NCBI GenBank assembly: GCA_947503305.1
Contig: CANNDF010000001.1
Coordinates: 868,001-932,000 of the forward strand
Reading direction: 5' to 3'
From: an uncultured Dokdonia sp.
GTDB lineage: Bacteria > Bacteroidota > Bacteroidia > Flavobacteriales > Flavobacteriaceae
Length of the DNA stretch: 64,000 bases
Shown: positions 15,613 through 31,225 of the stretch, one piece after another
How positions within the stretch are numbered: the first letter of the stretch is position 1
Layout: each line of letters starts with the position of its first letter
Program-made: the position numbers and the translations under genes
Notes under the pieces: model-generated
Told to the model about the DNA's origin: nothing
Database searches by the model: none
The model's input: the letters and a program-made list of their open reading frames with translations, nothing else

Positions 15613-15858
15613 AAACAAATACTATATATTTTGTGTATTACCTAAAATAATAGGTAAGCACTATATGCTAATGTTGCACATCGATCCCTTCCTTAAAAAA
15701 GAGGAGCGCTTTTTTTTAAAATTTCTGTATCTTCACAATCAGCGCAAACCCGCCCCTAAATAGATTGTATACTATTGAGAGAGAGATCTCTCAAAAGAAT
15801 TGCTATATGTAGAAACAGACAGCATATTATAACGAACCAAAATACGGCAAACTCGCGC

Positions 15859-17133
15859 ATGAAAACTTATAGAAATTATCGGTACTTGGTGTTATGCATC
15901 CTTAGTATCACTCTTTACGGCTGTAAAGCCATCGCCCCAATCACTACGATTCCCGATCCATATGAATCTCCTAAGGATATTGTTATCCTTATCGATGGGA
16001 CCAGTAATACTCCCGAAGACAATACCAATATCAATAAACTCCGCAAGCAGCTTAAAAAACGAGACGACCTGGTATCGTTTTATACGGTAGGTGTAGGCGG
16101 AGGGCCAGATTTTGCTATTACTGGTATGGCTATGGGTGTTGGGATTTCAAAAGATGTACGGGAAGCCTATCAGTTTATCAGCGAAAACTATGACGCCTCT
16201 CGGAATGACAGGATCCATCTCTTTGGGTTTAGTAGAGGGGCCTATACCGCACAGATCCTTTCCAATTTTATCTATACGGCAGGGATAGTAGACTTGAGTG
16301 CGATCTCTACCCAGCAGGAAAAGACCAAACTCTTGCGTAAGATGTACAAAGCTTATCTGGGCGATAGACCATTTACATGGCGTAAACGCAAAGTCACCGA
16401 TGTCCTAAAAAAATGGAAGACAAAAACTGGCACTCTCATCACCCGCGCTCAAGATGTGGAGATCGATATTCTAGGTCTTTTTGATAATGTAGAGGCACTG
16501 GCTGCTCCCGATTATAAAGAGAAATTTTGTGCCGTTAATACCAATCACCTTAATCAATATATCAATGTAAAAAAAGTACTGCATGCAGTAGCTCTGGATG
16601 ATAACCGTGCACAGATATTTACTCCCATCCTCGCTACCTGTCCTAACATACGTCTTAAACCCGAAGATCGCCTGGATGATATCGTCACCGAAGTTTGGTT
16701 CTCAGGGGCTCATAGTGATGTGGGTGGAGGGTATACCGATGATCCGGAGATTTCATACGTATCCCTCGATTGGATGATCCGCCAGACACAAGACTATAAT
16801 CTCTTTGATGAGGTTACCGTAACCGATACCCATATCAATGGTGTTCTCCATGACTCGGAAGACAACCTTATCGGGGCCTTATACCGCCGTCGCAATCGGG
16901 ATATCGTACTGTATTTTGAAGAAAACGGACCGTATTACAATCAAGGGAAACTCAAAATCCATTCGTCTGTGATCAAACGTCTGGCACAAGGGTTACAACC
17001 GTATTTTAAGTATTCAAAAAAATACACTCAAGACTGGTTTGATCAGGATCCTTTTTGTGACTGCTTTGTAAAAGATGGTGACAAAAGAATTTTCCAGAAA
17101 GATGATTGTACTGTGATAGAAGAGATTGATTAA
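15859..17133 (+). CDS. DUF2235 (Tle1-like) alpha/beta hydrolase lipoprotein
   Basis: I place the start at the ATG at 15859 because it gives a typical lipoprotein signal with lipobox LYGC near residue 20; a longer frame from an ATG at 15775 adds residues without a signal. The mature protein matches DUF2235: DIVILIDGTSNTPEDNTNI near the N-terminus, the nucleophile elbow GFSRG with Ser125, and WFSGAHSDVGGGY around residue 290 carrying the expected Asp/His. The family includes Tle1 phospholipase effectors of type VI secretion. This copy is a stand-alone lipoprotein, so a housekeeping or surface lipase role is as likely as an effector role. It ends 113 bases before hsdR. Confidence 0.8.
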   Translation: MKTYRNYRYLVLCILSITLYGCKAIAPITTIPDPYESPKDIVILIDGTSNTPEDNTNINKLRKQLKKRDDLVSFYTVGVGGGPDFAITGMAMGVGISKDVREAYQFISENYDASRNDRIHLFGFSRGAYTAQILSNFIYTAGIVDLSAISTQQEKTKLLRKMYKAYLGDRPFTWRKRKVTDVLKKWKTKTGTLITRAQDVEIDILGLFDNVEALAAPDYKEKFCAVNTNHLNQYINVKKVLHAVALDDNRAQIFTPILATCPNIRLKPEDRLDDIVTEVWFSGAHSDVGGGYTDDPEISYVSLDWMIRQTQDYNLFDEVTVTDTHINGVLHDSEDNLIGALYRRRNRDIVLYFEENGPYYNQGKLKIHSSVIKRLAQGLQPYFKYSKKYTQDWFDQDPFCDCFVKDGDKRIFQKDDCTVIEEID

Positions 17134-17246: not shown

Positions 17247-20200
17247 ATGAGATTTAACGAAGATTCAAGAGTAAAACTACCTGCAATATTGCATCTTACG
17301 CAATTAGGCTATACCTATATTTCTTTGAAGGATGCTGTTTGGGATCTTGATACTAATATCTTCACAGATATTTTCAAATCCTCTATTGCTAGGATTAATC
17401 CTCATCTTGAAGCTTCAGATATAGATAGATTGTATCAAGAAATAAGCTTGTCTTTAGAAAATGAAGACTTAGGAAAAGTGTTTTATGAAATGTTGATAGA
17501 GCGTTCGGGAACACGACTCATAGATTTTGAGGATTTTTCTAATAATGATTTTCATGTTTGTACAGAACTTACGTATAAGAATGGTGAGGACGAGTTCCGT
17601 CCTGATATTATTTGTTTGATTAATGGAATGCCATTGGTGTTTATAGAGGTTAAGAAGCCTAATAATCGAGAAGGGGTTTTAGACGAATTGAAACGTATTC
17701 AAAGAAGATCTCAAAATAAGAAATTTAGAAAATTTATAAACCTTACGCAGTTTATGATTTTCTCTAACAATATGGAGTATGATCCTAACGAGATAGAACC
17801 TTGGCAAGGGGCTTTTTATGCAGCTACTTCGTATAAGAATCCTATATTTAATTATTTTAGAGAAGAGATAGGGTTTAATCTTTCTCAAGTACTTAAACCA
17901 TTAGATCCAGATACACAAGACTTCTTATTAAAGGATACGAATTACCAATCACTCAAGAATAGCCCTGAATTTATAACCAATAAAAATCCAGATTCAGCTA
18001 CTAATAGAGTACTTACCTCGTTATTGAATAAAGACCGCTTGGCTTTTATGCTGCGATACTCGATCGCTTATGTAAAGGAAAGTAAAGGATTGCAAAAACA
18101 TATCATGCGATACCCACAGCTTTTTGCAACCAAGGCTATCGAAGAAAAACTAGATTCAGGGATAAAAAAAGGAATTATTTGGCATACACAAGGAAGCGGT
18201 AAAACGGCGCTTGCGTATTACAATACACACCATCTTACGGATTATTTCCAGAAGCAACATAAAATCCCTAAGTTCTACTTTATTGTAGACCGTTTGGACC
18301 TATTGACACAAGCCAGGGACGAATTTACGGCAAGAGGACTAAAAGTACATACCGTAAACTCTCGGGATGAATTTGTGCGAGATTTACGTAAAACCACGGC
18401 TTTAAATAACGACAAAGGAGAACGCGAAATTACAGTAGTCAATATCCAAAAATTTAAAGATGATCACGAGATAAGTAAGACGACCGATTATGATATTAAT
18501 ATCCAGCGTGTCTACTTTCTGGATGAAGTACATAGAAGTTATAACCCAGAAGGAAGTTTTCTGGCAAACTTAGAACAAAGTGATAAAAATGCGATAAAGA
18601 TTGGTTTGACAGGGACACCACTTATTGGAGATAGTCTAAAATCAACAAAACTCTTTGGGAAGTATATTCATAAATATTATTACAACAAATCTATTGCAGA
18701 TGGATATACCCTTAAGCTTATACGAGAAGAAATAGAGACCGAATACAAAGTACTTCTTAAAAATGCACTAGACGGGATTAACATAAAAAAAGGTGATGTA
18801 GATAAGAAAACCTTATATGCACATCCTTCTTTTGTTGAACCTATGCTCGCTTATATTGTTTCTGATTTTGAAAAATTTCGTCAGACTAAAGATGATCCAA
18901 ATGTGGGCGGTATGGTCATTTGTGACAGTAGTGAGCAAGCAGAAGAAATGTACAAGATTTTTAATGCTACATACGCTTTCGCGCGTCGTACTGAGCCTGC
19001 CGAAGTAAAAGCGAAAACAGAAAGTTCAGACCGCATTGCAGCAGAACCAACACCTACGTATGGAGTACAACGAAAAGAAGCCTATAAAGTAAAAACAGCC
19101 GCTTTAATACTTTATGACTCTGGAAGCAAACAGGAGTTAGAAGCATGGCGAGATGCTTTTAAAGAAGGCAAGATAGATTTATTGTTTGTGTACAATATGT
19201 TGCTTACAGGCTTTGATGCCAAACGATTAAAGAAACTGTATTTAGGACGTGTGATACGTAGCCACAATCTTTTACAAGCGCTCACCCGTGTGAATAGAAC
19301 CTATAAAGACTATCAATATGGATTTGTTGTAGACTTTGCTGATATTTCCAAAGAATTTGATAAAACCAATCGAGCGTATTTTGATGAACTTCAAGACGTG
19401 CTAGGCGATGAGATGGAGAGCTATTCAGATTTGTTTATGTCTCGGGAAGAGATGGAAGAAAAAATACGAGATATTAAAGAAATCTTAGCCGACTATGATG
19501 TAAAAAATGGAGAACATTTCTCTATGCAGATTTCTGAAATTTATGATCGTAGTGAGATGCTTAAGATCAAGAAATCTCTGGAAGACGCAAAATCATTGTA
19601 TAATATCATTCGTTTAGTAGGAGATTATGAATTGTTAGAACGTCTTGATTTTAGAAAACTAAGTGCATTGCGTATTATGGCAGTAGATAGACTTGCTTTA
19701 CTCAATGCAAAAGAAGCCTTTAAAAACAATGATGAGGTAGGCAATTTATTAAACATTGCTTTAGAAGACATTCTATTTGAATTTACCAAAACGGGAGAAG
19801 CAGAAATGATTCTAGGTGATGCTTTAAAAGATATCCTTAAGAAAACCAGAGAAGCTCTTGGAAATAATTTTGATCCTAAAGACCCACAATGGGTAAGTCT
19901 TTATGATGAACTAAGACGTTTGTTTGAAAACAAGAATTTGAATGAAGTCACTCAAGATGAGATGCGTGAGAATATGAAATCGCTCAAACACATTCATGAA
20001 GCCATCAAAGAACTTAATCGTAAAAACGACCTCTTAAAAAGTAAATACGAAGGCGATCCTAAATATGCACGTGTACAAAAACGATTACTGGAAGCAGGTC
20101 GTCCTTCTAAAATAAAGACTGCTATTATAGAAGCCTTACAAACCATAAAAGCAGCAACAGACACCCGAGTCTTACAACAAAATGATATCTTGACCAACGA

Positions 20201-20348
20201 AAGCTATTTTACAAAACAAGTAGCCAAAATGGTCAATAGTACCTTTAAAGAAACCCTACAACAATCGCTAGATTATGATACCGTCGTTTTTATAAGCGAC
20301 ATTATTGTAAAAGAATACCTAGACGAATATTTTGACAGAACCGCATGA
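17247..20348 (+). CDS. hsdR: type I restriction enzyme, R subunit
   Basis: A 1033-residue HsdR. The N-terminal nuclease domain has the PD-(D/E)xK residues Asp120, Glu134 and Lys136. The SF2 translocase follows, with Walker A HTQGSGKT ending at Thr320 and the DEVH box at 426-429, then LLTGFDAKRLKKLYLGR and ALTRVNRTYKDY in the second RecA domain. The C-terminal 300 residues are helical and bind the methylase. It translocates DNA and cuts unmodified sites. Residues about 574-610 form an Ala/Glu/Lys-rich linker encoded by repeat-like DNA (18974-19017). The stop overlaps the hsdM start by 4 bases. Confidence 0.96.
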   Translation: MRFNEDSRVKLPAILHLTQLGYTYISLKDAVWDLDTNIFTDIFKSSIARINPHLEASDIDRLYQEISLSLENEDLGKVFYEMLIERSGTRLIDFEDFSNNDFHVCTELTYKNGEDEFRPDIICLINGMPLVFIEVKKPNNREGVLDELKRIQRRSQNKKFRKFINLTQFMIFSNNMEYDPNEIEPWQGAFYAATSYKNPIFNYFREEIGFNLSQVLKPLDPDTQDFLLKDTNYQSLKNSPEFITNKNPDSATNRVLTSLLNKDRLAFMLRYSIAYVKESKGLQKHIMRYPQLFATKAIEEKLDSGIKKGIIWHTQGSGKTALAYYNTHHLTDYFQKQHKIPKFYFIVDRLDLLTQARDEFTARGLKVHTVNSRDEFVRDLRKTTALNNDKGEREITVVNIQKFKDDHEISKTTDYDINIQRVYFLDEVHRSYNPEGSFLANLEQSDKNAIKIGLTGTPLIGDSLKSTKLFGKYIHKYYYNKSIADGYTLKLIREEIETEYKVLLKNALDGINIKKGDVDKKTLYAHPSFVEPMLAYIVSDFEKFRQTKDDPNVGGMVICDSSEQAEEMYKIFNATYAFARRTEPAEVKAKTESSDRIAAEPTPTYGVQRKEAYKVKTAALILYDSGSKQELEAWRDAFKEGKIDLLFVYNMLLTGFDAKRLKKLYLGRVIRSHNLLQALTRVNRTYKDYQYGFVVDFADISKEFDKTNRAYFDELQDVLGDEMESYSDLFMSREEMEEKIRDIKEILADYDVKNGEHFSMQISEIYDRSEMLKIKKSLEDAKSLYNIIRLVGDYELLERLDFRKLSALRIMAVDRLALLNAKEAFKNNDEVGNLLNIALEDILFEFTKTGEAEMILGDALKDILKKTREALGNNFDPKDPQWVSLYDELRRLFENKNLNEVTQDEMRENMKSLKHIHEAIKELNRKNDLLKSKYEGDPKYARVQKRLLEAGRPSKIKTAIIEALQTIKAATDTRVLQQNDILTNESYFTKQVAKMVNSTFKETLQQSLDYDTVVFISDIIVKEYLDEYFDRTA
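18974..19017. repeat. repeat-like inverted segment inside hsdR
   Basis: CGCTTTCGCG at 18974-18983 and GCGAAAA at 19011-19017 form the arms of an imperfect inverted repeat around TACTGAGCCTGCCGAAGTA, itself with TACT/AGTA ends. The arms are half-copies of the window-wide TTTCGCGAAA palindrome. It is read in frame as an AFARR...VKAK linker, so it looks like an inserted repeat that kept the reading frame. Confidence 0.5.
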
Positions 20349-21967
20349 CAGCAGACCTTACAACACAGCATATCCTAAAAACCAAAGAACTCATAGACGA
20401 CTTAAAAGCCGTCTGTGCCAACTATGGATTGGGAAATGATGGGAATGAATTTAAAATTATTACCCAAATATTTTTATATAAATACCTCAATGATAAGTTT
20501 ACGTATGAACTGAAGAAAATACATCCGGATTGGTTTACAGATAAGCAATGGATAAAACGCTTGGAAACCTTATCAGACGATGATTATAAAAAACTAGAAT
20601 TTGAGATTGATAGTGATATTGCGTTTTTAAAAACACATCATTTTTTACCCTATTTATTCAATAGGCAAGACGAGCCTGATTTTGCTAAGCAATTGGATGA
20701 AACTTTACTAGATATTGCAGCAGAAAACAACGAACTTTTTGCCGTAACCACGCAAGATGGTGTCAAGATTAGACTGTTTGAACCTATCACAGAATATGTA
20801 AGTAGTAAACGAGATGCCTTTGCTAAAGCCTTAATTAATAAATTGGTGATCTTTAATTTTGAAGACGTCATGGGAGAAGGTTTTGATTTTTTCTCTACCA
20901 TTTTTGAATATTTGATCAAAGACTATAACAATGATGCAGGTGGGAAATATGCCGAGTATTATACCCCACATGCGGTGGCTAAGATTATGGCAGCCATTAT
21001 GATCCCTTCTCCTGTAAGTAATGTCACTATTTTTGATCCCAGTGCAGGTTCAGGAACTTTATTGATGAATTTGGCACATGCCATAGGCCCTAAAAAATGC
21101 ACCGTATACTCTCAGGATATCTCTCAGAAATCCTCCAATTTATTACGATTAAATCTCGTACTTAATAATTTGGTACATAGTATTCAGAATGTGATACAAG
21201 GAAATACCATGACAGATCCCTACCATCGCGATCAAAAGTTTGATTATATCGTGAGTAATCCTCCTTTTAAGTTAGATTTTAGTGATGATATAGATACGCT
21301 TTCGCGAAAAGAAAACAAGCAACGTTTCTTTGCAGGACTACCAAATGTACCAAAGAAAGCCAAAGATAAAATGGCGATCTACCCCCTATTTATCCAACAC
21401 ATCATGCATGTGTTAGCAGATGGTGGTAAAGCAGCGGTTGTTGTCCCTACAGGATTTATTACCGCACAAAGTGGGATAGAAAAACGAATTAGAACCAAAC
21501 TTGTAGAAGAAAAAATGTTGGCAGGTGTAGTGAGTATGCCAAGTAATATTTTTGCGACCACTGGCACCAATGTCTCCATCTTATTTTTAGATAAAGCCAA
21601 TACCACAGATGATGCTAAAGTCGTATTAATAGACGCTAGTAGTTTAGGAAAAACCATTAGAGAAGGAAAGAACCAAAAAACCGTTTTACAACCCGACGAA
21701 GAACAACAGATCATTAATACGTTTATCAAACAGGAAGTCATAGACGATTTTTCAGTGGCTGTAGGATATGAAGAGATCAAAGAAAAAAACTATTCCCTAA
21801 GTGCTGGGCAGTATTTTGAAGTGAAAATTGAATATGTAGACATTACCGCGGAAGAGTTTGATAATAAAATAAAGTCTTTTGAAAGTAATTTAGAAAGTTT
21901 GTTTTCTGAGAGTGAAAGGATAGAAAAAGAGATTCAGAATAATTTGAAGACTTTGAAATATGACTGA
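20345..21967 (+). CDS. hsdM: type I restriction enzyme, M subunit (N6-adenine methylase)
   Basis: A 540-residue HsdM whose ATG overlaps the hsdR stop. After the helical N-terminal domain it shows SAM-binding motif I DPSAGSG at 231-237 and catalytic motif IV SNPPF at 304-308, the gamma-class adenine methylase pattern. With HsdS it methylates the recognition site and, with HsdR, restricts. A degenerate palindrome copy (21298-21311) encodes LSRKE just after the catalytic motif. It overlaps hsdS by 8 bases. Confidence 0.96.
   Translation: MTADLTTQHILKTKELIDDLKAVCANYGLGNDGNEFKIITQIFLYKYLNDKFTYELKKIHPDWFTDKQWIKRLETLSDDDYKKLEFEIDSDIAFLKTHHFLPYLFNRQDEPDFAKQLDETLLDIAAENNELFAVTTQDGVKIRLFEPITEYVSSKRDAFAKALINKLVIFNFEDVMGEGFDFFSTIFEYLIKDYNNDAGGKYAEYYTPHAVAKIMAAIMIPSPVSNVTIFDPSAGSGTLLMNLAHAIGPKKCTVYSQDISQKSSNLLRLNLVLNNLVHSIQNVIQGNTMTDPYHRDQKFDYIVSNPPFKLDFSDDIDTLSRKENKQRFFAGLPNVPKKAKDKMAIYPLFIQHIMHVLADGGKAAVVVPTGFITAQSGIEKRIRTKLVEEKMLAGVVSMPSNIFATTGTNVSILFLDKANTTDDAKVVLIDASSLGKTIREGKNQKTVLQPDEEQQIINTFIKQEVIDDFSVAVGYEEIKEKNYSLSAGQYFEVKIEYVDITAEEFDNKIKSFESNLESLFSESERIEKEIQNNLKTLKYD
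21298..21311. repeat. imperfect TTTCGCGAAA palindrome inside hsdM
   Basis: The bases CGCTTTCGCGAAAA carry the palindrome core with a mismatched right end. It is read in the frame that gives LSRKE, different from the AFAKA frame used in most other copies. Confidence 0.6.
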
Positions 21968-23171
21968 ATATTTTTTGAATGATTTGTTGAAAATTAAGAA
22001 TGGCAGGGATCATAAACACCTTGAAGAAGGTGAAATTCCTGTTTATGGGAGTGGTGGATTAATTAGGTATGTGAACAAATTTCTTTATGATAAGGAAAGT
22101 ATTTTGTTACCTCGAAAAGGAACTTTGAATAATATTCAATATGCAAATAAACCATTCTGGACAGTTGATACAATTTACTACTCAGAGATAAATGACGAAA
22201 TAGTTGATGGATATTACTTATACAACTACTTAAAATTATTGGATTTGAGTAATTTAAATTCAGGCACTGGAGTTCCAAGTATGACTTTTGGAGCTTATTA
22301 TGGAATTAAAATCAATTTACCTGAATTATCGATTCAAAAACAAATCGCCAAAGTCTTATCCGATATAGATGCTAAGATAGAAGTCAACAACAAAATCAAT
22401 ACAGAATTAGAGTCTCTTGCCAAATTAATCTATGACTATTGGTTTGTTCAGTTTGATTTTCCAGATGCCAATGGCAAACCCTACAAATCTTCTGGTGGAA
22501 AGATGATATATAATGAGGAATTGAAAAGGGAGATTCCTGAAGGGTGGGAATCTGGAATAGCTACTAAAATAATTGAGTTTAACCCTACAGAATCATTACC
22601 TAGAAATGAAGTGGGGAGTTATATTGATATGAATGCTTTACCAACAAATGGCTATATGACTTCAAAAGTTCAGAAAAAGCAATTTGGAGGAGGAATGAAG
22701 TTTAGAAATCATGATGTTTTGGTTGCTAGAATTACACCCTGTCTAGAAAACGGAAAAACTTGTTTAGTTTCTCTTTTAGATAATGACGAAGTTGGTTTTG
22801 GGTCTACAGAGTTTATAGTGATGAGAGGAAAGAAAAAACCATTACCAGCGTTTATATCATTTTTGTCTCGATCAGAGTATTTCAGAAAATATGCTATTAT
22901 GAATATGGTAGGTACTTCTGGGAGAAAACGTGTAGACGCAAAACAATTAGAACTCATATCAATCCCTATTCCACCTGAAAATCTTCTTGATCGTTTTGAA
23001 GAAATGATTCAACCTTACTTCGAGAAGATGACATTAAATACTAAAGAAAACCAAGAATTAGCTTCGTTACGCGATTGGTTATTGCCTATGTTAATGAATG
23101 GGCAGGTGAGGGTTGGAGAGATAAAAGAACAGTTGGGTATGGTTGCGGAGGAGAATATTAAGTATGGGTAG
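21960..23171 (+). CDS. hsdS: type I restriction enzyme, specificity subunit
   Basis: A 403-residue HsdS with two target-recognition domains. The first covers about residues 1-115. A conserved helix follows (KQIAKVLSDIDAKIEVNNKINTELE) with the linker YDYWFVQFDFPDANGKPYKSSGGKM. The second domain starts after IPEGWESG near 200, and a second helix lies near the end. It sets the bipartite DNA site, which cannot be read from sequence. It starts 8 bases before the end of hsdM and ends 2 bases before the PtuA-like gene. The first domain looks more AT-rich than hsdM, as is common for exchanged recognition domains. Confidence 0.94.
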   Translation: MTEYFLNDLLKIKNGRDHKHLEEGEIPVYGSGGLIRYVNKFLYDKESILLPRKGTLNNIQYANKPFWTVDTIYYSEINDEIVDGYYLYNYLKLLDLSNLNSGTGVPSMTFGAYYGIKINLPELSIQKQIAKVLSDIDAKIEVNNKINTELESLAKLIYDYWFVQFDFPDANGKPYKSSGGKMIYNEELKREIPEGWESGIATKIIEFNPTESLPRNEVGSYIDMNALPTNGYMTSKVQKKQFGGGMKFRNHDVLVARITPCLENGKTCLVSLLDNDEVGFGSTEFIVMRGKKKPLPAFISFLSRSEYFRKYAIMNMVGTSGRKRVDAKQLELISIPIPPENLLDRFEEMIQPYFEKMTLNTKENQELASLRDWLLPMLMNGQVRVGEIKEQLGMVAEENIKYG

Positions 23172-23173
23172 GT

Positions 23174-25414
23174 ATGAGTGGGTTTAAGCTTTTAGGGATA
23201 CGTCCTTTGGAAGGGTGTGGAGATAGATTTAAAAAAAACTTAAAAGAAGGGGAAGTCTATAAATTTTATGGAGATTATATCTTTTTGGACAAAAGAGGTA
23301 ATGAAATCTCCCATGCGCATGAAAATATAAATGATCCTATATACAACGTAAAAACGCCTGAAAACGATATTGATATTTATTCTAATAATGATGATCTAAA
23401 AATTCATATCTCGGCTATTGTAGGGAAAAATGGAAGTGGAAAAAGTACACTTATCGAATTGTTTTTTCTAGCTGTTTATTTATGGGATTATAAGAATATT
23501 ATTCAACATAAGAAAGATGTAGAAGAGGAGAGTATTGAAATAGATCCAAAGTATTCATTTAATAAAATTTTAGAGAAAAATAAGGACTTTGTAGACGTAC
23601 ATGCTGATGGTCGTATACAACGTTTTTTTGGAGGTGTTAAAATATTTATAAAAGAAAGAGTACATCTGGAATTATACTATAAGATTGATACAACTATCTA
23701 TAGATTTTGCATTGATACGGATCGTAAAGATGACACAAACTGGTATCAAATAGAACGTTTAGTAGAAGGTAATTTTGAATCCTATGACTATGAAGAACGT
23801 ACTCCTTTTTATAGCATTGCCTTAAATTACTCCATACATTCATTAAATACTGTTGATATAGGGATATGGCTAGACAGTATTTTTCATAAAAATGATGCGT
23901 ATCAAACCCCTTTAGTAATCAATCCAAAAAGAGAAGAAGGAACCATAGATATCGATAATGAAAGAGGGTTGCAAAAGGCAAGGCTGTTAGTAAATACAAT
24001 GGATATTATCAGTAATAGTCCAGAAGATAATGATCCACTATTTAATTATAAAACAATCGAGAAAATTGTTTTTAAGTATCGATATACTAATTATAAAACG
24101 AGGTTTAAAGGATTGTCTGACTTGTATTTAGACATTCCTTTAATAGGTGCTCCGTACGATAATGTAAATGAAAGGCTTAAGTATGAAATTACTCAACATC
24201 AAGAAATATTTAAGCTAAAAGCGTATAAATCGTGTTCTTGGATAGAGAAAGAAGTATACGGATATTTACTATATAAAACAGATCGTATAGTTAAAAATTA
24301 CCCTACTATTTTTAATGAAGGTGATTATGAACGAAACCTTAAAAAAATAAAAGACTATGACAGCCATATTACCTATAAATTAAAGCAGGTGATTCATTTT
24401 ATTAATCACGATAATTATATAAAAACAAAATGTGAAGAGTATCAACCAGAACTAGTTAAAGACGCATATGGAGAGGGAATGGATGGATATTCATTCAGAG
24501 AGGATCCAGGTATTGAAATAGCAATACGAAATGAAGAAGATAATTTGAGAGATCAGATCTATTCTAATCAAACTAAAGTATCGCTTGACCTTATAAATTT
24601 TTTGCCCCCTCCCGTTTTTGAGTATGATTTTCATTTTTCTGAGAAATTAAACGATACATTTGAGAATGTAAGTTCAGGAGAAAAACAACAGATCTACTCG
24701 ATACATACGATTATGTATCATCTGCGTAATGTTTCCTCAATCAAAAAGTCTACGGCCTTATTCAAGTATAATAATATTAATATTCTATTAGACGAAATTG
24801 AATTATACTTTCATCCAGAAATGCAGCGACATTTTATTGATAGATTACTTAAAGGGATTGGTCAATTAAGTAAATATTTTAAAGGCAGTATTAAGTCCAT
24901 TAATATATTAATAGCTACGCATTCTCCTTTTATTCTTTCAGATATCACATCTTCAAATATTTTAAGACTAAATAATGGAACAGTTCAAACAATTAAACAA
25001 CAAACATTTGGGGCTAACATACACGACTTATTAGCAAATGATTTCTTTTTAGAGAATGGGTTTATGGGGGAGTTTGCTAAAGTTGAGATAAAGAGAGTAG
25101 TCAATTCATTACAATATATAATTTTAACTAATGAAAAACTTGAAAAAGAAAGATTTTTAAAGAGTTCAACTATCGATTTAGATAAAATAAAGTTAAGAGA
25201 TCAGATCAATGATATTACTTCAAAATTAAGAGGTCTACTTCCTCTTTACGAAAAGAATTATGATCAAGATTATTTTGAAAGTGTTATTAAAATTGTTGGT
25301 GAACCTATGTTATATATGAGTTTGATGGAGTTATATACAGACGCTTTTAAAACTAAAAAGGATACTTTTTTACAATCACAAATTGATAGACTTATAAATT
25401 TAAAAGAGAAATGA
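23174..25414 (+). CDS. AAA/ABC-type ATPase, PtuA-like (Septu defence)
   Basis: A 746-residue SMC/RecF-like ATPase. Walker A GKNGSGKS is at 84-91, the ABC signature-like SSGEKQQ at 500-506, Walker B LLDEIE with acidic residues at 540-541, and the H-loop ATHSPF at 581-586. The long middle insert has no clear coiled coil. An ATPase of this shape coupled by a 4-base overlap to an HNH protein is the arrangement of Septu (PtuA/PtuB), in which ATP state controls the nuclease. It lies 2 bases after hsdS. A line I counted here (24301-24360) has 16 G/C in 60 bases against 25 in a line of hsdM (21001-21060), suggesting separate acquisition. Confidence 0.8.
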   Translation: MSGFKLLGIRPLEGCGDRFKKNLKEGEVYKFYGDYIFLDKRGNEISHAHENINDPIYNVKTPENDIDIYSNNDDLKIHISAIVGKNGSGKSTLIELFFLAVYLWDYKNIIQHKKDVEEESIEIDPKYSFNKILEKNKDFVDVHADGRIQRFFGGVKIFIKERVHLELYYKIDTTIYRFCIDTDRKDDTNWYQIERLVEGNFESYDYEERTPFYSIALNYSIHSLNTVDIGIWLDSIFHKNDAYQTPLVINPKREEGTIDIDNERGLQKARLLVNTMDIISNSPEDNDPLFNYKTIEKIVFKYRYTNYKTRFKGLSDLYLDIPLIGAPYDNVNERLKYEITQHQEIFKLKAYKSCSWIEKEVYGYLLYKTDRIVKNYPTIFNEGDYERNLKKIKDYDSHITYKLKQVIHFINHDNYIKTKCEEYQPELVKDAYGEGMDGYSFREDPGIEIAIRNEEDNLRDQIYSNQTKVSLDLINFLPPPVFEYDFHFSEKLNDTFENVSSGEKQQIYSIHTIMYHLRNVSSIKKSTALFKYNNINILLDEIELYFHPEMQRHFIDRLLKGIGQLSKYFKGSIKSINILIATHSPFILSDITSSNILRLNNGTVQTIKQQTFGANIHDLLANDFFLENGFMGEFAKVEIKRVVNSLQYIILTNEKLEKERFLKSSTIDLDKIKLRDQINDITSKLRGLLPLYEKNYDQDYFESVIKIVGEPMLYMSLMELYTDAFKTKKDTFLQSQIDRLINLKEK

Positions 25415-26379
25415 TAGCGATCCATCAAAACAGAGTAAAAGTTGTTCAAACTCTTTTTGCTGATGACATAAAAAAACAAAGAGAGAAAGCTTTAGAAAAA
25501 TTAATTGTTTTAAATAATAAGACAGATAATAGAGACGATAAAACGTATTTAGAGAATGTTATATCACTATTTGAAAATAATACTGATATACTACTTTGGG
25601 ATCAAGTTAAATTAGAGACAGAAAAAGATAGCATAGGTGATGTTCCTCTTGTTGAAAAGCTCTATAGAGGTAAGCTGAGGTTAGTTAAAAGTCCAATAAA
25701 AAATATAATTATAAAAGAACTAGGTTATAAAAGCTTAAGAAGTTCTTTTTATCCACAATATTTTGAGAAAATAGGGATTAAAGCTTGTGTGTATTGTAAT
25801 TCACAGCTTACAATAACAGCTATTAAATCTAAAGGTAAATATTCTGCAAAATTTGATGTAGATCATTATCACTCAAAAGATGAGTACCCTTTTTTAAGTA
25901 TTTGTTTGTATAATTTATATCCAGCTTGTGCTTCTTGTAACAGAGCAAAAAGTAATGGCGAGGTTGAATTTAATTTATATACAAATGATGGAGTCAAAAC
26001 ACTCCAAGCTGATTACCAGTTTAAATTAACCCCTTATTCTAAAGCAAAATATTTAGTAACTAGAGATGTTGAAGAGCTCTCCTTTATTTTTGAAGAGCCA
26101 GATTATGATAATCCAAATGTAAAGACTTTCAATGAGGTTTTTCATATTGAAAGTATTTACGAAACTCAAAAAGATGTAATTGAAGAGTTGATTATCAAAA
26201 GTCAGATATATAACCAAGCATATTTAAAAACATTAAAATTGAGCTTTAATAAACTATCATTACATCCGAGATTGTATAAAAGAACATTGATAGGTAACTA
26301 CACAGAAGATAAGGATATACATAAAAGGCCTATGAGTAAATTTATGATGGATATTGCTAAAGACCTCGATTTAATTTGA
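25411..26379 (+). CDS. HNH nuclease, PtuB-like (Septu defence)
   Basis: A 322-residue protein starting inside the stop of the ATPase gene. Zinc-binding CVYC lies at 126-129, the catalytic DH at 151-152 within FDVDHYHSK, and CASCN at 173-177, followed by RAKS. This Cys4-zinc HNH layout with YPFLSICLYNLYPAC between the halves matches PtuB-like nucleases. It would cut DNA or another nucleic acid when released or activated by its ATPase partner. It is the most AT-rich gene sampled here: two lines (25561-25620 and 25681-25740) have 15 and 11 G/C in 60 bases. The next gene starts with TTG overlapping its TGA. Confidence 0.8.
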   Translation: MIAIHQNRVKVVQTLFADDIKKQREKALEKLIVLNNKTDNRDDKTYLENVISLFENNTDILLWDQVKLETEKDSIGDVPLVEKLYRGKLRLVKSPIKNIIIKELGYKSLRSSFYPQYFEKIGIKACVYCNSQLTITAIKSKGKYSAKFDVDHYHSKDEYPFLSICLYNLYPACASCNRAKSNGEVEFNLYTNDGVKTLQADYQFKLTPYSKAKYLVTRDVEELSFIFEEPDYDNPNVKTFNEVFHIESIYETQKDVIEELIIKSQIYNQAYLKTLKLSFNKLSLHPRLYKRTLIGNYTEDKDIHKRPMSKFMMDIAKDLDLI

Positions 26380-26996
26380 AAGAGATTATTGAAAAATTTA
26401 TTATTACTTCCGATCAAGAGTTTCATCGTTATAATTCTTGGAATCATTGTTATGCTGCTTTTGGTGATAATAAGTTGAGTAACGATATTTTGGCATTACA
26501 TCTTGGATTTTACCTAGCTAGTTGGGGGATGTATCGTGGCTCTAGTGGATTGCTTCAGAAAGATTACAAAATACATATTGGGGCTGTTGAAGTCATCCAT
26601 CGATATCCTGAATTAAGATGCTCAAAAAATAAAGAGGTAACCTCTTCTGATATTGTCACAATAAGAGCTCTAATTGAAGATTTGGAAGAATATTATCAAC
26701 CCTATTCATTTAAAACATCAGAGGGGGTAGTTAAGAATATAAGTGCAACAGATACACTGATAAGTAAAATACTATTAGGGACATTAGGATGTCTTCCAGC
26801 TTTTGATCGGTTTTTTATAGATGGAGTAAGAAAAGAAAAGAAAAAATTTACAACATTAAAAGAGCGAAGTCTTAAGAATCTTTTTGCCTATACAGAAGAG
26901 CATGAACACCTTCATAAATTGCAGAAGGAATATCCTCAGTATCCTGTCATGAAATTAGTGGATATGTATTTTTGGCAAATAGGCTTTGATTTATAA
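26376..26996 (+). CDS. unrecognised third protein of the Septu-like module
   Basis: A 206-residue soluble protein whose TTG start overlaps the HNH gene stop (TTGA), the same coupling as the genes before it, so the frame and start are well supported. It is mixed helical with aromatic-rich motifs: RYNSWNHCYAAFG near residue 20, ALHLGFYLASWGMYRGSSGLLQKDYKIH at about 40-67 and PAFDRFFIDG near 147. I know no function for it. Conserved-looking Trp, His, Arg and Asp residues could form an active site. It may be a sensor, a nuclease regulator or an antitoxin-like guard of the HNH protein. It is the last gene of the six-gene operon and ends 3 bases before the convergent DUF2188 gene. Confidence 0.75.
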   Translation: MKEIIEKFIITSDQEFHRYNSWNHCYAAFGDNKLSNDILALHLGFYLASWGMYRGSSGLLQKDYKIHIGAVEVIHRYPELRCSKNKEVTSSDIVTIRALIEDLEEYYQPYSFKTSEGVVKNISATDTLISKILLGTLGCLPAFDRFFIDGVRKEKKKFTTLKERSLKNLFAYTEEHEHLHKLQKEYPQYPVMKLVDMYFWQIGFDL

Positions 26997-26999
26997 TCC

Positions 27000-27284
27000 T
27001 CAATCCCCATATCCAATCCGTTCTCGAATCCCGCCACTGGCTCGATGAATAATCACATCGGCTTTCTTTCTTTTGGCAATAATTTTGGCTTTATTGATAG
27101 CGGTACTCTGTTTACGATGTTTGGAGGTAATCCGTTTATTGCCTTCTCGACGTACGGCCCAACCCTCTTCATACGGCACCACATGCTGATGCCAGGTTCT
27201 CTTTCGTGAGGTACCATTTAAGCTTTCAGAGATCGCTTTTGCAAGATCTAAAATGAGTTGTTTCCAGGATGTGTTTTTAGACAT
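27000..27284 (-). CDS. DUF2188 protein
   Basis: A 94-residue basic protein on the minus strand, convergent with the defence operon and separated from it by 3 bases. Residues 31-90 match DUF2188: WHQHVVPYEEGWAVRREGNKR, then KAKIIAKRKKADVIIHRASGGIRER. The family forms a small alpha/beta fold of unknown role and is widespread in genomic islands. The N-terminal 30 residues are an amphipathic extension. It has no visible partner. Confidence 0.8.
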   Translation of the reverse strand: MSKNTSWKQLILDLAKAISESLNGTSRKRTWHQHVVPYEEGWAVRREGNKRITSKHRKQSTAINKAKIIAKRKKADVIIHRASGGIRERIGYGD

Positions 27285-27570: not shown

Positions 27571-27675
27571 TTTCGATACAATCACGCCTCTGGCGTGATC
27601 ACTCAGTGACCTAGTTCTGGAACGAATTACAGGTGGCTGAGTGATTTTTGCGAAAGCGAAAATTGTATCGAAGCC
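27565..27675. repeat. cloverleaf repeat, copy 2
   Basis: Same plan as copy 1, with ends TTCGATACAA/TTGTATCGAA, hairpin A CACGCC-TCT-GGCGTG and hairpin C ATTTTTGC-GAAA-GCGAAAAT. Relative to copy 1, hairpin A changes on both sides and keeps pairing. It ends 37 bases before the GIY-YIG start. Confidence 0.85.
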
Positions 27676-27712
27676 ACTGGGTCTGTCTTACGTTCATTCA
27701 TTATATTTAACC

Positions 27713-28003
27713 ATGGCAAAAGGGTTTATGTATATTCTAAGATGTAATGATGGTACTTATTATACGGGTAGCACAAAAGATCTCGAACGTCGTCTCAAAC
27801 AACATCAGGAAGGGTTAGGCGCTGTATATACTAAAAATAGACTTCCCGTATCATTGCTCTATTATGAAGAATATGATCGTATTGATCATGCTTTTTACCG
27901 TGAAAAACAAATACAAGGCTGGAGCCGTAAAAAGAAAGAAGCGTTGATGAATGGAGAAGAGTACTTATTGCCAGAACTAGCAAAGAAAATATTCAGAAAA
28001 TAG
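27713..28003 (+). CDS. GIY-YIG nuclease family protein (UPF0213-like)
   Basis: A 96-residue GIY-YIG domain protein. I chose the ATG at 27713 because the longer frame from 27641 reads through cloverleaf copy 2. Motifs are MYILRCNDGTYYTGSTKDLERRLKQHQ at the N-terminus (Tyr pair and catalytic Arg) and YREKQIQGWSRKKK in the C-terminal half with the metal-binding Glu. Stand-alone proteins of this group are common in Bacteroidota and their role is unsettled; some cut branched or single-stranded DNA. It is bracketed by two cloverleaf repeats on each side, which could be its substrate. Confidence 0.88.
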   Translation: MAKGFMYILRCNDGTYYTGSTKDLERRLKQHQEGLGAVYTKNRLPVSLLYYEEYDRIDHAFYREKQIQGWSRKKKEALMNGEEYLLPELAKKIFRK

Positions 28004-28666: not shown

Positions 28667-31225
28667 ATGCCGATAACACCCACTCAAAAACTTATAGATC
28701 TCCTTAAAAATGACAAGGTAATTCCGGTTATTGGAGCAGGGGTGTCTAACGCAACCGCAGGATTGCCAGGGTGGGGTGGGTTACTACAACATGGGATTGA
28801 ATATGCCACCATCCGACACTTAGATGAAAATCTCATTTCAAATGCAACACAAGCCTTGCAACAAAAAGATTTGCTGGAGACCTCTACACATCTGAAAGCG
28901 GTACTGCAAGCCCCTGGGTATTTATATACAAACTGGCTTAATGAAGTATTTGATGATCTTGAGATTATATCCAAAGCGTTGATCAATAGTATTCTTGATT
29001 TATCAACGCCCATCTTATGTACCACTAACTATGATACACTACTTTCTGAAGTAAATAACCTGACCAATAGGCAACGCTATGATCAAACAGAATACCAGGA
29101 AATCATAAAAGCAATCAGAAACAACAATGACCTTGTTATCCATTTGCATGGGGTGTATGATAAACCAGACACTGTTGTTTTAAGCAAAGAAGATTATGAT
29201 AACCTGACGGATCAGGTGGGATATAAAGAACTACTTAAAAAACTTCTATCGGACTATCATTTCTTGTTTATAGGATGTAGTAAAGATGGAGTTATGGATG
29301 AAGATTTTTCGCAACTTTTTGATTTTATAAAAACATGGTTTCCTCATACGGCACATCAACACTATATGCTGGTTCATGAAAAAGAGATAAACACCAAAAA
29401 TCATATAACACTCCTGACAGAAGGGAATATAGAAGCCATCAGTTTTGGAGACGATTATAAGAAACTTCCTCAATTTATAACGTCTATCAATCCTAATCTT
29501 AAAAAAAGACAAGAAGCACTGGAAACTTTTAAAATCCAGATAGAAAGAGAAGTAAGACGAATAGCAACTACCGAGGCCTCCAGAGATCAGCATGCAACAA
29601 AGGCACTAGAAAAAATACTGACCGATAATTTTACTTCTGAATACGATTGGGTTGATTCGGCAAAAATGAGGGCATTTGAACAAATACTCGAAAATGTAAA
29701 TGCTTCTATAGACGAAAAAAGAGACAAATTGATTTTTTCGCAAAATATGATTCAATCCATGTTTAATACCCATGAGTTGTCAGAAAAAGTAGCGCTATGG
29801 AATAAAAATAGAAGCAATCCCAAAAAATTAAAACCGGCAGAATTCATCAATACAGGAATTTTTGCCTTCCAGAGTTTACATCGGATTCCCAAAGATGTAC
29901 TGGAGGATATTAAATTTTCCAGACCTAACGTAATACACGGTTATTTTTATGACGGATACTTAGGAGGCTTTATACAGAGAATAGAAAACACCAAAAAACG
30001 GAAGCTAGATCCTGCCGAATTTTATAAAAATGATGAATACCTTTTTGAAAACTTAAAACGTATCATCGACTCTCTGAATGAATTTCTGAAACTAGATCCC
30101 GATGATCTGTATGAACCATTAGGGAAAGCGACTATCACAAAAAAACTGCCTGATTCTTTTCTTTTGTGTAAAAGTGCCGAAGAAGTTCTATTGCGAAGTC
30201 ATGAAGATTATCATAAGATGTATGCCAGACTCCCGATATCCAAAAATGATAAGATCATTAAAGTAGCGGCACTAAAATATGAAGAAGCGATATATATAAT
30301 AGGATGCTCGAAGAGGCATTGCTTTTTTTGGAAACCCCAAGAACATATATCTTCCAAGCGTTTTTACACATTAAAGACTGGAGAAGCACTACGAGATATT
30401 TTTTGTTATGTAGAGGGCTCTGTATTGCATATTGATGTATTTTCTCAAAGCCACGTGATCCATTTTGAAAATTTTATAGAGACAAGTAAAATCCGGGTAG
30501 ATATGCCATGGCAAAAACCGATCGCCTATAACCATGGGTTTCTGTTATTAAAAAGGTTTGATTCGACCTACAAAGGGCTGTTTTTAAAATGGCTTCATAA
30601 TGATGGTACAATGACACAATTGCTTACGATAGATGATGTAGATGCTTTGTTAGACCAGGATACAAAAGTTGGAGATGATATCAACGCTTACAAAGACTAT
30701 AGAGAAGAAATAGGATTAGAACGGGAACCTTATATAAATATCATAAACTCTTTTGATGCCACTGTTTTACAGTATAAAGGGAAGGAATATATCTTGCTGG
30801 GAGCAAATATGAAATTGGTAAAGTCTACAACCGTTTTATTTTTATGTGAAATAGATGCAGGCGCCATCCAGGTTTTGGATACATTATATTTGACATCGGG
30901 AAGTGGGTTTTCTTATAATTATTATGTTAACAATGATACTATAAAAGTTTGTTGTGGGTATCTGGATGTAAATAGGAGTGATGTGATTGCTGAGATTATT
31001 GAAATCAAAAACCTGAAGTTTGTAAAAAACCATTCCATAGAAATACCTAAAATTGAAAGCGGTGTGCGGGATATATTTCAAGTATTTTTTTTAGATGAAA
31101 AAACGATACTGATGAATCAAGAAAACGAAAAATTAATTACCTATACTAGTAGAAGTTTAGTAAATCGTTATTCTGAATTAGAATTGAGCCAGTATATTAA
31201 TAGTATCGCTTATGTTTCTTTTTAA
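28667..31225 (+). CDS. SIR2-domain defence-type protein with unknown C-terminal half
   Basis: An 852-residue protein. The N-terminal 270 residues are a SIR2-like domain: nucleotide-binding VIGAGVSN at 21-28, TTNYD at 119-123, HLHG with the likely catalytic His161, and FIGCSKDGVMDEDF near 200. Prokaryotic SIR2 domains of this kind in defence genes hydrolyse NAD+ to stop phage growth. Residues 280-480 are charged and helical. The rest has alternating beta-strand blocks (YEEAIYIIGCSKRHCFFW, GLFLKWLHNDG, EYILLGANMKL) that could be a beta-propeller-like sensor. I recognise no named system with this exact layout. It lies in the same island as the restriction operon. Confidence 0.82.
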   Translation: MPITPTQKLIDLLKNDKVIPVIGAGVSNATAGLPGWGGLLQHGIEYATIRHLDENLISNATQALQQKDLLETSTHLKAVLQAPGYLYTNWLNEVFDDLEIISKALINSILDLSTPILCTTNYDTLLSEVNNLTNRQRYDQTEYQEIIKAIRNNNDLVIHLHGVYDKPDTVVLSKEDYDNLTDQVGYKELLKKLLSDYHFLFIGCSKDGVMDEDFSQLFDFIKTWFPHTAHQHYMLVHEKEINTKNHITLLTEGNIEAISFGDDYKKLPQFITSINPNLKKRQEALETFKIQIEREVRRIATTEASRDQHATKALEKILTDNFTSEYDWVDSAKMRAFEQILENVNASIDEKRDKLIFSQNMIQSMFNTHELSEKVALWNKNRSNPKKLKPAEFINTGIFAFQSLHRIPKDVLEDIKFSRPNVIHGYFYDGYLGGFIQRIENTKKRKLDPAEFYKNDEYLFENLKRIIDSLNEFLKLDPDDLYEPLGKATITKKLPDSFLLCKSAEEVLLRSHEDYHKMYARLPISKNDKIIKVAALKYEEAIYIIGCSKRHCFFWKPQEHISSKRFYTLKTGEALRDIFCYVEGSVLHIDVFSQSHVIHFENFIETSKIRVDMPWQKPIAYNHGFLLLKRFDSTYKGLFLKWLHNDGTMTQLLTIDDVDALLDQDTKVGDDINAYKDYREEIGLEREPYINIINSFDATVLQYKGKEYILLGANMKLVKSTTVLFLCEIDAGAIQVLDTLYLTSGSGFSYNYYVNNDTIKVCCGYLDVNRSDVIAEIIEIKNLKFVKNHSIEIPKIESGVRDIFQVFFLDEKTILMNQENEKLITYTSRSLVNRYSELELSQYINSIAYVSF

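Follow-up and report, generated by a model that had tools for sequence, protein, structure and literature searches.

The embedding of one bacterial defence system in another has so far been known case by case. TgvAB is described as part of a type I restriction operon in Vibrio, where it confers protection without HsdR activity (PMC11411939), PrrC and PARIS are portrayed as guardians of restriction-modification (RM) systems that sense blocked restriction (PMC12707154), and Septu is mentioned as being embedded in Hma systems (PMC12255303). One pair of the Septu proteins PtuA and PtuB (PtuAB) is reported to target nicked DNA, and PtuAB of retron-Eco7 to lead to a loss of tRNA-Tyr (PMC11555353). 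The PDC systems of the PADLOC collection derive from a guilt-by-embedding screen and are mostly unvalidated (PMC12988326); one of them is the unpublished candidate PDC-M62, whose calls in genomes of the Bacillus cereus group overlap with those of Septu by DefenseFinder (PMC11811056). Here we have analysed a stretch of 64,000 nucleotides from an uncultured Dokdonia species (contig CANNDF010000001.1, positions 868,001 to 932,000), referred to as the window, with a focus on its positions 17247-26996, where six open reading frames (ORFs) stand in one row on the + strand. Three genes of a type I RM system (hsdRMS) are followed by a trio encoding an ATPase, an HNH nuclease and a 206-residue protein of an unnamed family (Table 1). 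With a probability of about 0.62, we regard this operon as a type I front with a slot directly behind hsdS that holds a plug-in second-line defence, since the same trio also follows an RM front of another kind at this chromosomal site and related type I fronts are followed by other plug-ins.

The first part of this evidence is provided by a metagenome-assembled genome of the same genus. Its locus L044 (L numbers denote loci, and the places that carry two of them, L043 and L201, L120 and L204, L205 and L251, and L044 and L243, were each counted once) contains a trio with protein identities to that of the window of 80% for the ATPase, 69% for the HNH nuclease and 67% for the 206-residue protein. 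A single DNA match (78% over 4182 bases, 23173 to 27284 of the window) begins one base before the start codon of the ATPase and stops where the DUF2188 gene ends, and no match to L044 at an E-value of 1e-5 was found upstream of 23173. In L044, the genes upstream of the trio encode an MmeI-type enzyme, a helicase and a T5orf172 protein in place of hsdRMS. The earlier note on this DNA had proposed to score how often the trio follows hsdS; the nearest relative trio stands behind an MmeI-type enzyme and not behind a type I system. Both loci share their downstream genes, except for a gene encoding a SIR2-domain protein, and contain acs upstream, which identifies them as the same chromosomal site. 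A four-gene cassette that would include the antisense gene of 94 residues was considered and ruled out, since this DUF2188 gene is common in the host family, many of the 397 family genomes searched containing a DNA match. The site was read in nine of 17 further congeneric genomes, part of the rest being on other contigs. It is empty in six of the nine, where the thioredoxin gene directly follows acs, and it holds the MmeI set with the trio in L243 (the same place as L044), a type I operon with genuine PtuA and PtuB in L238, and other genes in L239. In another congener (L240, on an unplaced contig), the pair follows hsdR within a type I set, and its HNH nuclease and ATPase are 59-62% and 33-36% identical to those of the window.

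The second part of the evidence concerns the reverse exchange, in which related type I fronts are followed by different genes. Among 397 family genomes, 24 (that of the window counted in) encode HsdM relatives of at least 61% identity, and 25 hsdM places besides that of the window were read, three of which (L257, L261 and L269) are cut by contig ends. An ATPase-HNH pair is located behind hsdS in eight of the 25 (L248, L251, L252, L254, L264, L265, L270 and L272, with one extra gene in between in L251, L254 and L270), and the ATPases of these eight loci are 18-36% identical to that of the window. Likewise, hsdR and hsdM of L024, L045 and L205 are 54-75% identical to their counterparts in the window, and the pairs behind them just 27-38%. 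A PADLOC scan that covered nine of the remaining 17 hsdM loci, with ten proteins in all, recognized genes in seven of the nine (Table 1) and gave no match for the slot proteins of L259 and L263. Together, the occurrence of the trio behind another RM front and of other contents behind related fronts argues that hsdS is followed by a swappable slot for second-line defences.

Table 1. Features of the operon and its flank in window coordinates, and contents of the slot behind related hsdS genes.
Feature	Position	Strand	Remarks
hsdR, type I restriction subunit	17247..20348	+	1033 aa; Pfam HSDR_N, SWI2_SNF2, T1R_D3-like; TIGR00348
hsdM, type I N6-adenine methyltransferase	20345..21967	+	540 aa; N6_Mtase 8.6e-68; PADLOC MTase_I PDLC03033 1.7e-264
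hsdS, type I specificity subunit	21960..23171	+	403 aa; two Methylase_S stretches; PADLOC Specificity_I 4.6e-103
AAA/ABC-type ATPase, PDC-M62A type	23174..25414	+	746 aa; PDC-M62A 1.5e-43, best PtuA 1.3e-15
HNH nuclease, PDC-M62B type	25411..26379	+	322 aa; PDC-M62B 8.2e-48, best PtuB 3.5e-10
206-residue protein, unnamed family, predicted fold like HhH DNA glycosylases	26376..26996	+	206 aa, TTG start
Exchangeable three-gene cassette (ATPase, HNH, 206-residue protein)	23174..26996	+	DNA match to L044; same chromosomal site, other RM enzyme ahead
DUF2188 gene flanking the operon	27000..27284	-	94 aa; PF09954 1.5e-17; outside the cassette
Slot content, L255			Avs2-like, 4-base overlap with hsdS
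Slot content, L261			TIR with Roc-COR
Slot content, L250			PDC-S26
Slot content, L266			PDC-M33 A and C
Slot content, L260			Partial Argonaute-type match
Slot content, L271			PDC-S18
Slot content, L258			DRT2, 436 bases past hsdS

The frequency of this arrangement was assessed in a census of genomes and plasmids. Matches to the PDC-M62B profile were found in 16 of 296 genomes of the phylum, where 13 pairs besides that of the window comprise eight directly behind hsdS, two behind other restriction genes (type ISP in L022 and an HSDR_N helicase in L025), two that stand alone and one at a contig end (L026), which was not classed; this count leaves aside the four loci L035-L038, which were taken as PtuAB-like from their short genes. 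In a second sample, covering the class, 25 of 395 genomes contain a match, and the 19 new loci divide into six behind hsdS, ten that are not and three without class. Among plasmids, the HNH nuclease of the window matched 11 records, with no hsd genes beside the pair in any of the eight neighbourhoods opened, seven of them judged by annotation and L127 by ORF labels alone. When the query was taken from L043, four records were matched, in all of which the pair resides behind hsdS and carries the TIGR04435 name. A plasmid search with the cassette DNA and a search of viral contigs with the HNH nuclease of the window gave no match.

In a tree calculated from concatenated ATPase and HNH sequences (49 rows), two branches can be distinguished. 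All 18 pairs of the first (SH-aLRT 100%) are located directly behind hsdS, at a spacing of at most six bases or with overlap in 17 cases and of 43 bases in the remaining one. The second branch of 28 rows (support 93) includes the window pair, which adjoins that of L044, and consists of 18 free-standing pairs, three in type I operons, three with other RM genes and four without class. Five rows lack a context label in this tree and six in a larger one of 62 rows calculated with FastTree, where at least nine changes of the type I label (gains or losses) fall on starred branches, with a sampling by hsdM that favours type I rows and several long branches that are unsure. Among the free-standing pairs of the second branch, one is placed directly behind HamA and a helicase in a Hachiman-like arrangement (L170:3682-9999) and another two genes behind a TIR protein (L165), which indicates that the pair joins other defences too. 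As judged from the trees, the branch of the window is mostly free-standing and has entered RM operons several times.

The link between the pair and restriction is not accidental in general, as underlined by the 18 of 18 pairs of the first branch and the eight of 25 close hsdM loci, and an accidental neighbourhood as general account is ruled out by this branch and the repeated joins. Within the branch of the window, the situation that had been named in advance as speaking for an accidental link, homologues that normally reside far from type I systems, is nearly encountered, with 18 of 24 classified pairs being free-standing. These free-standing pairs would also fit a possible though doubtful explanation for the operon of the window itself, in which the join reflects mere packing in a defence island, where a promoter is shared and insertion is favoured, while the two halves are functionally unconnected. 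The site between acs and the thioredoxin gene is indeed a hotspot, empty in the six congeners and differently filled in the window, L243, L238 and L239, and it is flanked by DUF2188 and GIY-YIG genes. Against mere packing stand the translational overlap, which exceeds simple closeness, the confinement of a whole branch to the position behind hsdS and the repetition of the joins.

A tighter relationship is assumed in a second alternative, where the module guards the restriction enzyme in the style of PrrC in EcoprrI, remaining silent under HsdRMS and being released when an anti-restriction protein of a phage blocks it. Such a role is suggested by the close placement behind hsdS in all members of the first branch and by the description of PrrC and PARIS as RM guardians (PMC12707154). 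We consider it unlikely, since the same trio follows an MmeI-type enzyme at a site without hsdRMS, most pairs in the branch of the window stand alone and the other slot contents are mutually unrelated, so that one would not expect them all to contact HsdRMS in the same way. Similarly, a true hybrid enzyme, in which HsdM2HsdS lends its DNA specificity to the ATPase-HNH pair as a cutting unit alternative to HsdR, might be read from the order M-S-ATPase-HNH without an hsdR label in the stretches read of L132, L134 and L174, but is very improbable in light of the full hsdR of the window, the chance that a distant hsdR falls outside those stretches and the other slot contents, which have no such role.

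In the favoured scenario of a plug-in slot, the second-line defence would be made together with the restriction system, and a phage that escapes hsdRMS would meet a second weapon. The ATPase most likely restrains the HNH nuclease and would free it upon an infection signal, and the released nuclease would then cut nucleic acid. The 206-residue protein would most likely sense or act on DNA bases, as a glycosylase-like component aimed at modified or damaged phage DNA that escapes cleavage by restriction. Activation when restriction is blocked, as put forward in the earlier note, would be plausible. However, the protection by TgvAB without HsdR activity (PMC11411939) and the persistence of the trio behind an MmeI-type enzyme lead us to prefer a backup that is co-expressed but largely independent to a guard in the strict sense.

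The overlaps of 4, 8, 4 and 4 bases among the six genes of the operon and the single gap of 2 bases between hsdS and the ATPase gene, which had been listed in the earlier note, are exact by ORF coordinates and overlap letters, and its assignment of the first three genes is clear from Pfam, PADLOC and NCBIfam profiles: hsdR, hsdM and hsdS are adjacent, each with its domains, and HsdR reaches 284.0 bits against TIGR00348, slightly below the cut-off of 284.55. The arrangement is, by these joins, mostly one for joint translation. A consensus scan of the + strand detected no terminator-like site from hsdS to the end of the gene for the 206-residue protein and four within hsdR and hsdM; on both strands of the region it counted nine terminator-like sites compared to 3.9 (standard deviation 2.2) in shuffled sequences, and 47 promoter-like sites compared to 49.6, hence no excess, where none of these consensus sites is evidence of function.

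The base composition changes behind hsdS. The G+C content amounts to 0.35 in hsdR, 0.352 in hsdM, 0.333 in hsdS, 0.289 in the ATPase gene, 0.28 in the HNH gene and 0.324 in the last gene, which is thus less A/T-rich than the two preceding it. The proportion of 60-base lines with at most 16 G/C is 3/51, 4/26 and 2/19 in the three hsd genes and 17/36, 8/15 and 1/9 in the trio, and a recount bore out the values quoted previously, including the 25 of 60 in the hsdM line 21001-21060 and the low lines in the ATPase and HNH genes. The relative of the cassette in L044 is likewise A/T-rich, which marks the low G+C content as a property of the cassette itself and weakens it as proof of a late addition. 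The proposal that the module was added to an existing restriction operon is supported by the comparison of loci and by the tree, and little by the drop in G+C. At the join of hsdS and the ATPase gene (23161-23185), we observed a near-duplication of 10 bases (TATGGGTAGG, TATGAGTGGG), whose first copy closes hsdS and is identical to the beginning of the ATPase gene in L044, while the second opens that of the window; it is a possible trace of the joining event.

The identity of the pair is best described by the PDC-M62 profiles, which are the top PADLOC matches of both proteins (147.8 bits for PDC-M62A compared to 55.4 for PtuA, and 161.7 bits for PDC-M62B compared to 37.7 for PtuB) and whose genes are adjacent and in the same order. 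PtuA and PtuB are in neither case the best match, and the true PtuAB in L238 reach 548.6 and 357.7 bits for comparison. The designation as PtuA-like and PtuB-like is thus appropriate at the level of the superfamily but not as an assignment to Septu, PDC-M62 fitting far better. Against TIGR04435, the ATPase scores 54.7 bits at a curated cut-off of 300 and so falls outside this family, whose NCBIfam name, 'restriction system-associated', implies that annotators had already noted the tie of such ATPases to restriction. The sequence of the ATPase contains GKNGSGKS at 84, SSGEKQ at 500, ILLDE at 537 and ATHS at 581, which we take to be Walker A, signature, Walker B and H-loop, and the residues C126, C129, D151, H152, N168, C176 and N177 of the HNH nuclease are invariant in 25 aligned rows; by these motifs, the active sites of both proteins are intact. 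In a separate observation, the HNH nucleases of L200 and L240 are 59-63% identical to that of the window but their ATPases just 33-36%, the two partners changing at different rates.

The 206-residue protein has no match in Pfam, PADLOC, NCBIfam, PHROGs or PDB sequences. Few genomes encode a member of its family (2 of the 296 sampled from the phylum), and a pattern scan of the genome collection yielded 301 relatives. Neighbourhoods were counted for the best 80 of these 301, those nearest the window: an upstream gene of at least 100 residues was assessed in 77 of the 80 loci and lies on the same strand within 150 bases in 52, of which 49 were scanned after exclusion of three HNH neighbours. The ATPase-HNH pair is found directly upstream in only three of the 77 (L043, L044 and L045); from these neighbourhoods, the protein is a member of a family of its own, for the most part found without the pair. 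Since the pair of L043 is part of the first branch and that of L045 of a distant region of the second, the gene has probably become associated with such pairs repeatedly. In L048, L051 and L120, hsdR is located directly upstream, in L047 the same place is taken by an hsdR-labelled ORF of 82 residues, and in L075 the family gene is inserted between hsdM and hsdS. Genes with hsd-like labels are present within the stretch in 23 of the 77 loci, an uncontrolled proportion that refers to loci nearest the window. The 49 scanned upstream neighbours include one PvuRts1I-like_N and one SRA protein (among the matches listed, 25 of 48 families), and others that are plainly unrelated, such as a homoserine dehydrogenase. 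One relative resides on a viral contig (L041:4914-7755) with an hsdM-like gene downstream and neighbours that we take from their translations to be ASCH-like and Mrr-like, another on a phage record (L042:5986-6690), and a plasmid search with the protein gave no match.

Within the family, 23 positions with polar or aromatic residues, Cys or Pro are conserved in no fewer than 62 of 65 rows, and residues including R18, W50, R54, H67, K131, D144, K193 and D196 are invariant in all of them. The model of the protein displays a helical fold predicted with high confidence, which weakly matches helix-hairpin-helix (HhH) DNA glycosylases in a VIA-align comparison with 294 aligned PDB chains ranked by Foldseek. 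A Lys/Asp pair is catalytic in HhH-GPD DNA glycosylases; K131 and D144 are invariant in 65 of 65 members and might be such a pair. No HhH signature was seen ahead of K131, no HhH-GPD profile was found for the 65 members at E-values up to 1 among the matches listed (25 of 32 families), and no HhH glycosylase among PDB sequences at E-values up to 10. Weak sequence matches in Pfam and PDB, such as TBC1D15 and ribonucleotide reductase, were taken as chance. A further, rather improbable proposal is that the family constitutes a new base-excising class of defence proteins of the glycosylase or lyase type on RM operons that opens modified phage DNA, which is resistant to restriction, into abasic or nicked DNA for destruction by the Septu-like ATPase-HNH pair. 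If true, the operon would kill unmodified and modified phages in succession.

Other genes surround the operon. Immediately upstream of hsdR, 15775-17133 encodes a protein with a Tle1-like phospholipase catalytic domain, and downstream, at 28667-31225, a SIR2-domain protein of 852 residues with LmuA- and ThsA-type PADLOC matches is a further likely defence gene, which is missing from the equivalent site in L044. A small gene at 27641-28003, which from its translation we presume to be GIY-YIG-like, has two relatives in L044 (one at L044:2866-3168) that flank the stretch of helicase, T5orf172 gene and trio and perhaps mark an insertion.

Collectively, our study suggests that bacterial restriction systems are fitted with exchangeable second weapons. 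One slot and one site in a single genus illustrate an exchange in both directions, with the same plug-in behind different RM systems and different plug-ins behind related ones, and these naturally swappable halves make the need for a restriction backup and its trigger accessible to experiments. The analysis further points to a widespread protein family without a name that is frequently encoded close to restriction genes and whose predicted fold resembles DNA glycosylases. Our literature search, which extended to sources other than subscription journals and preprints, found no paper describing M62-type pairs in type I operons, and what is new within this literature is the exchange in both directions at a single site, a branch confined to the position behind hsdS, the variety of slot contents and the 206-residue protein family, unnamed so far, together with the fold predicted for it.

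Among the known systems close to the operon is the PADLOC candidate PDC-M62, with which it shares both profiles, the adjacency and the gene order. The matches cover the A and B proteins, to which the operon adds the 206-residue protein, which matches no PADLOC model, and a complete type I set ahead. Pairs of a TIGR04435 ATPase and an HNH partner are homologous and also found directly behind hsdS, but the ATPase of the window is far below the cut-off of this family and part of the other branch. Septu, which also serves as effector of type I-A retrons, shares the order of ATPase and HNH nuclease and a distant homology, whereas the profile match of the pair in the window is far weaker than that of true PtuAB at the same site in a congener. 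The predicted overall fold of the 206-residue protein, with its invariant Lys131 and Asp144, weakly resembles HhH DNA glycosylases (3knt, MagIII) and the DUF2419 queuosine enzyme, at an identity of 9-12% in the two best structural matches. Finally, PrrC of EcoprrI, TgvAB, RloF and DarTG2 resemble the present case in that one or several second defence genes are placed inside a type I operon; they belong to other protein families, and in the loci investigated here it is several unrelated systems that share the slot behind hsdS.

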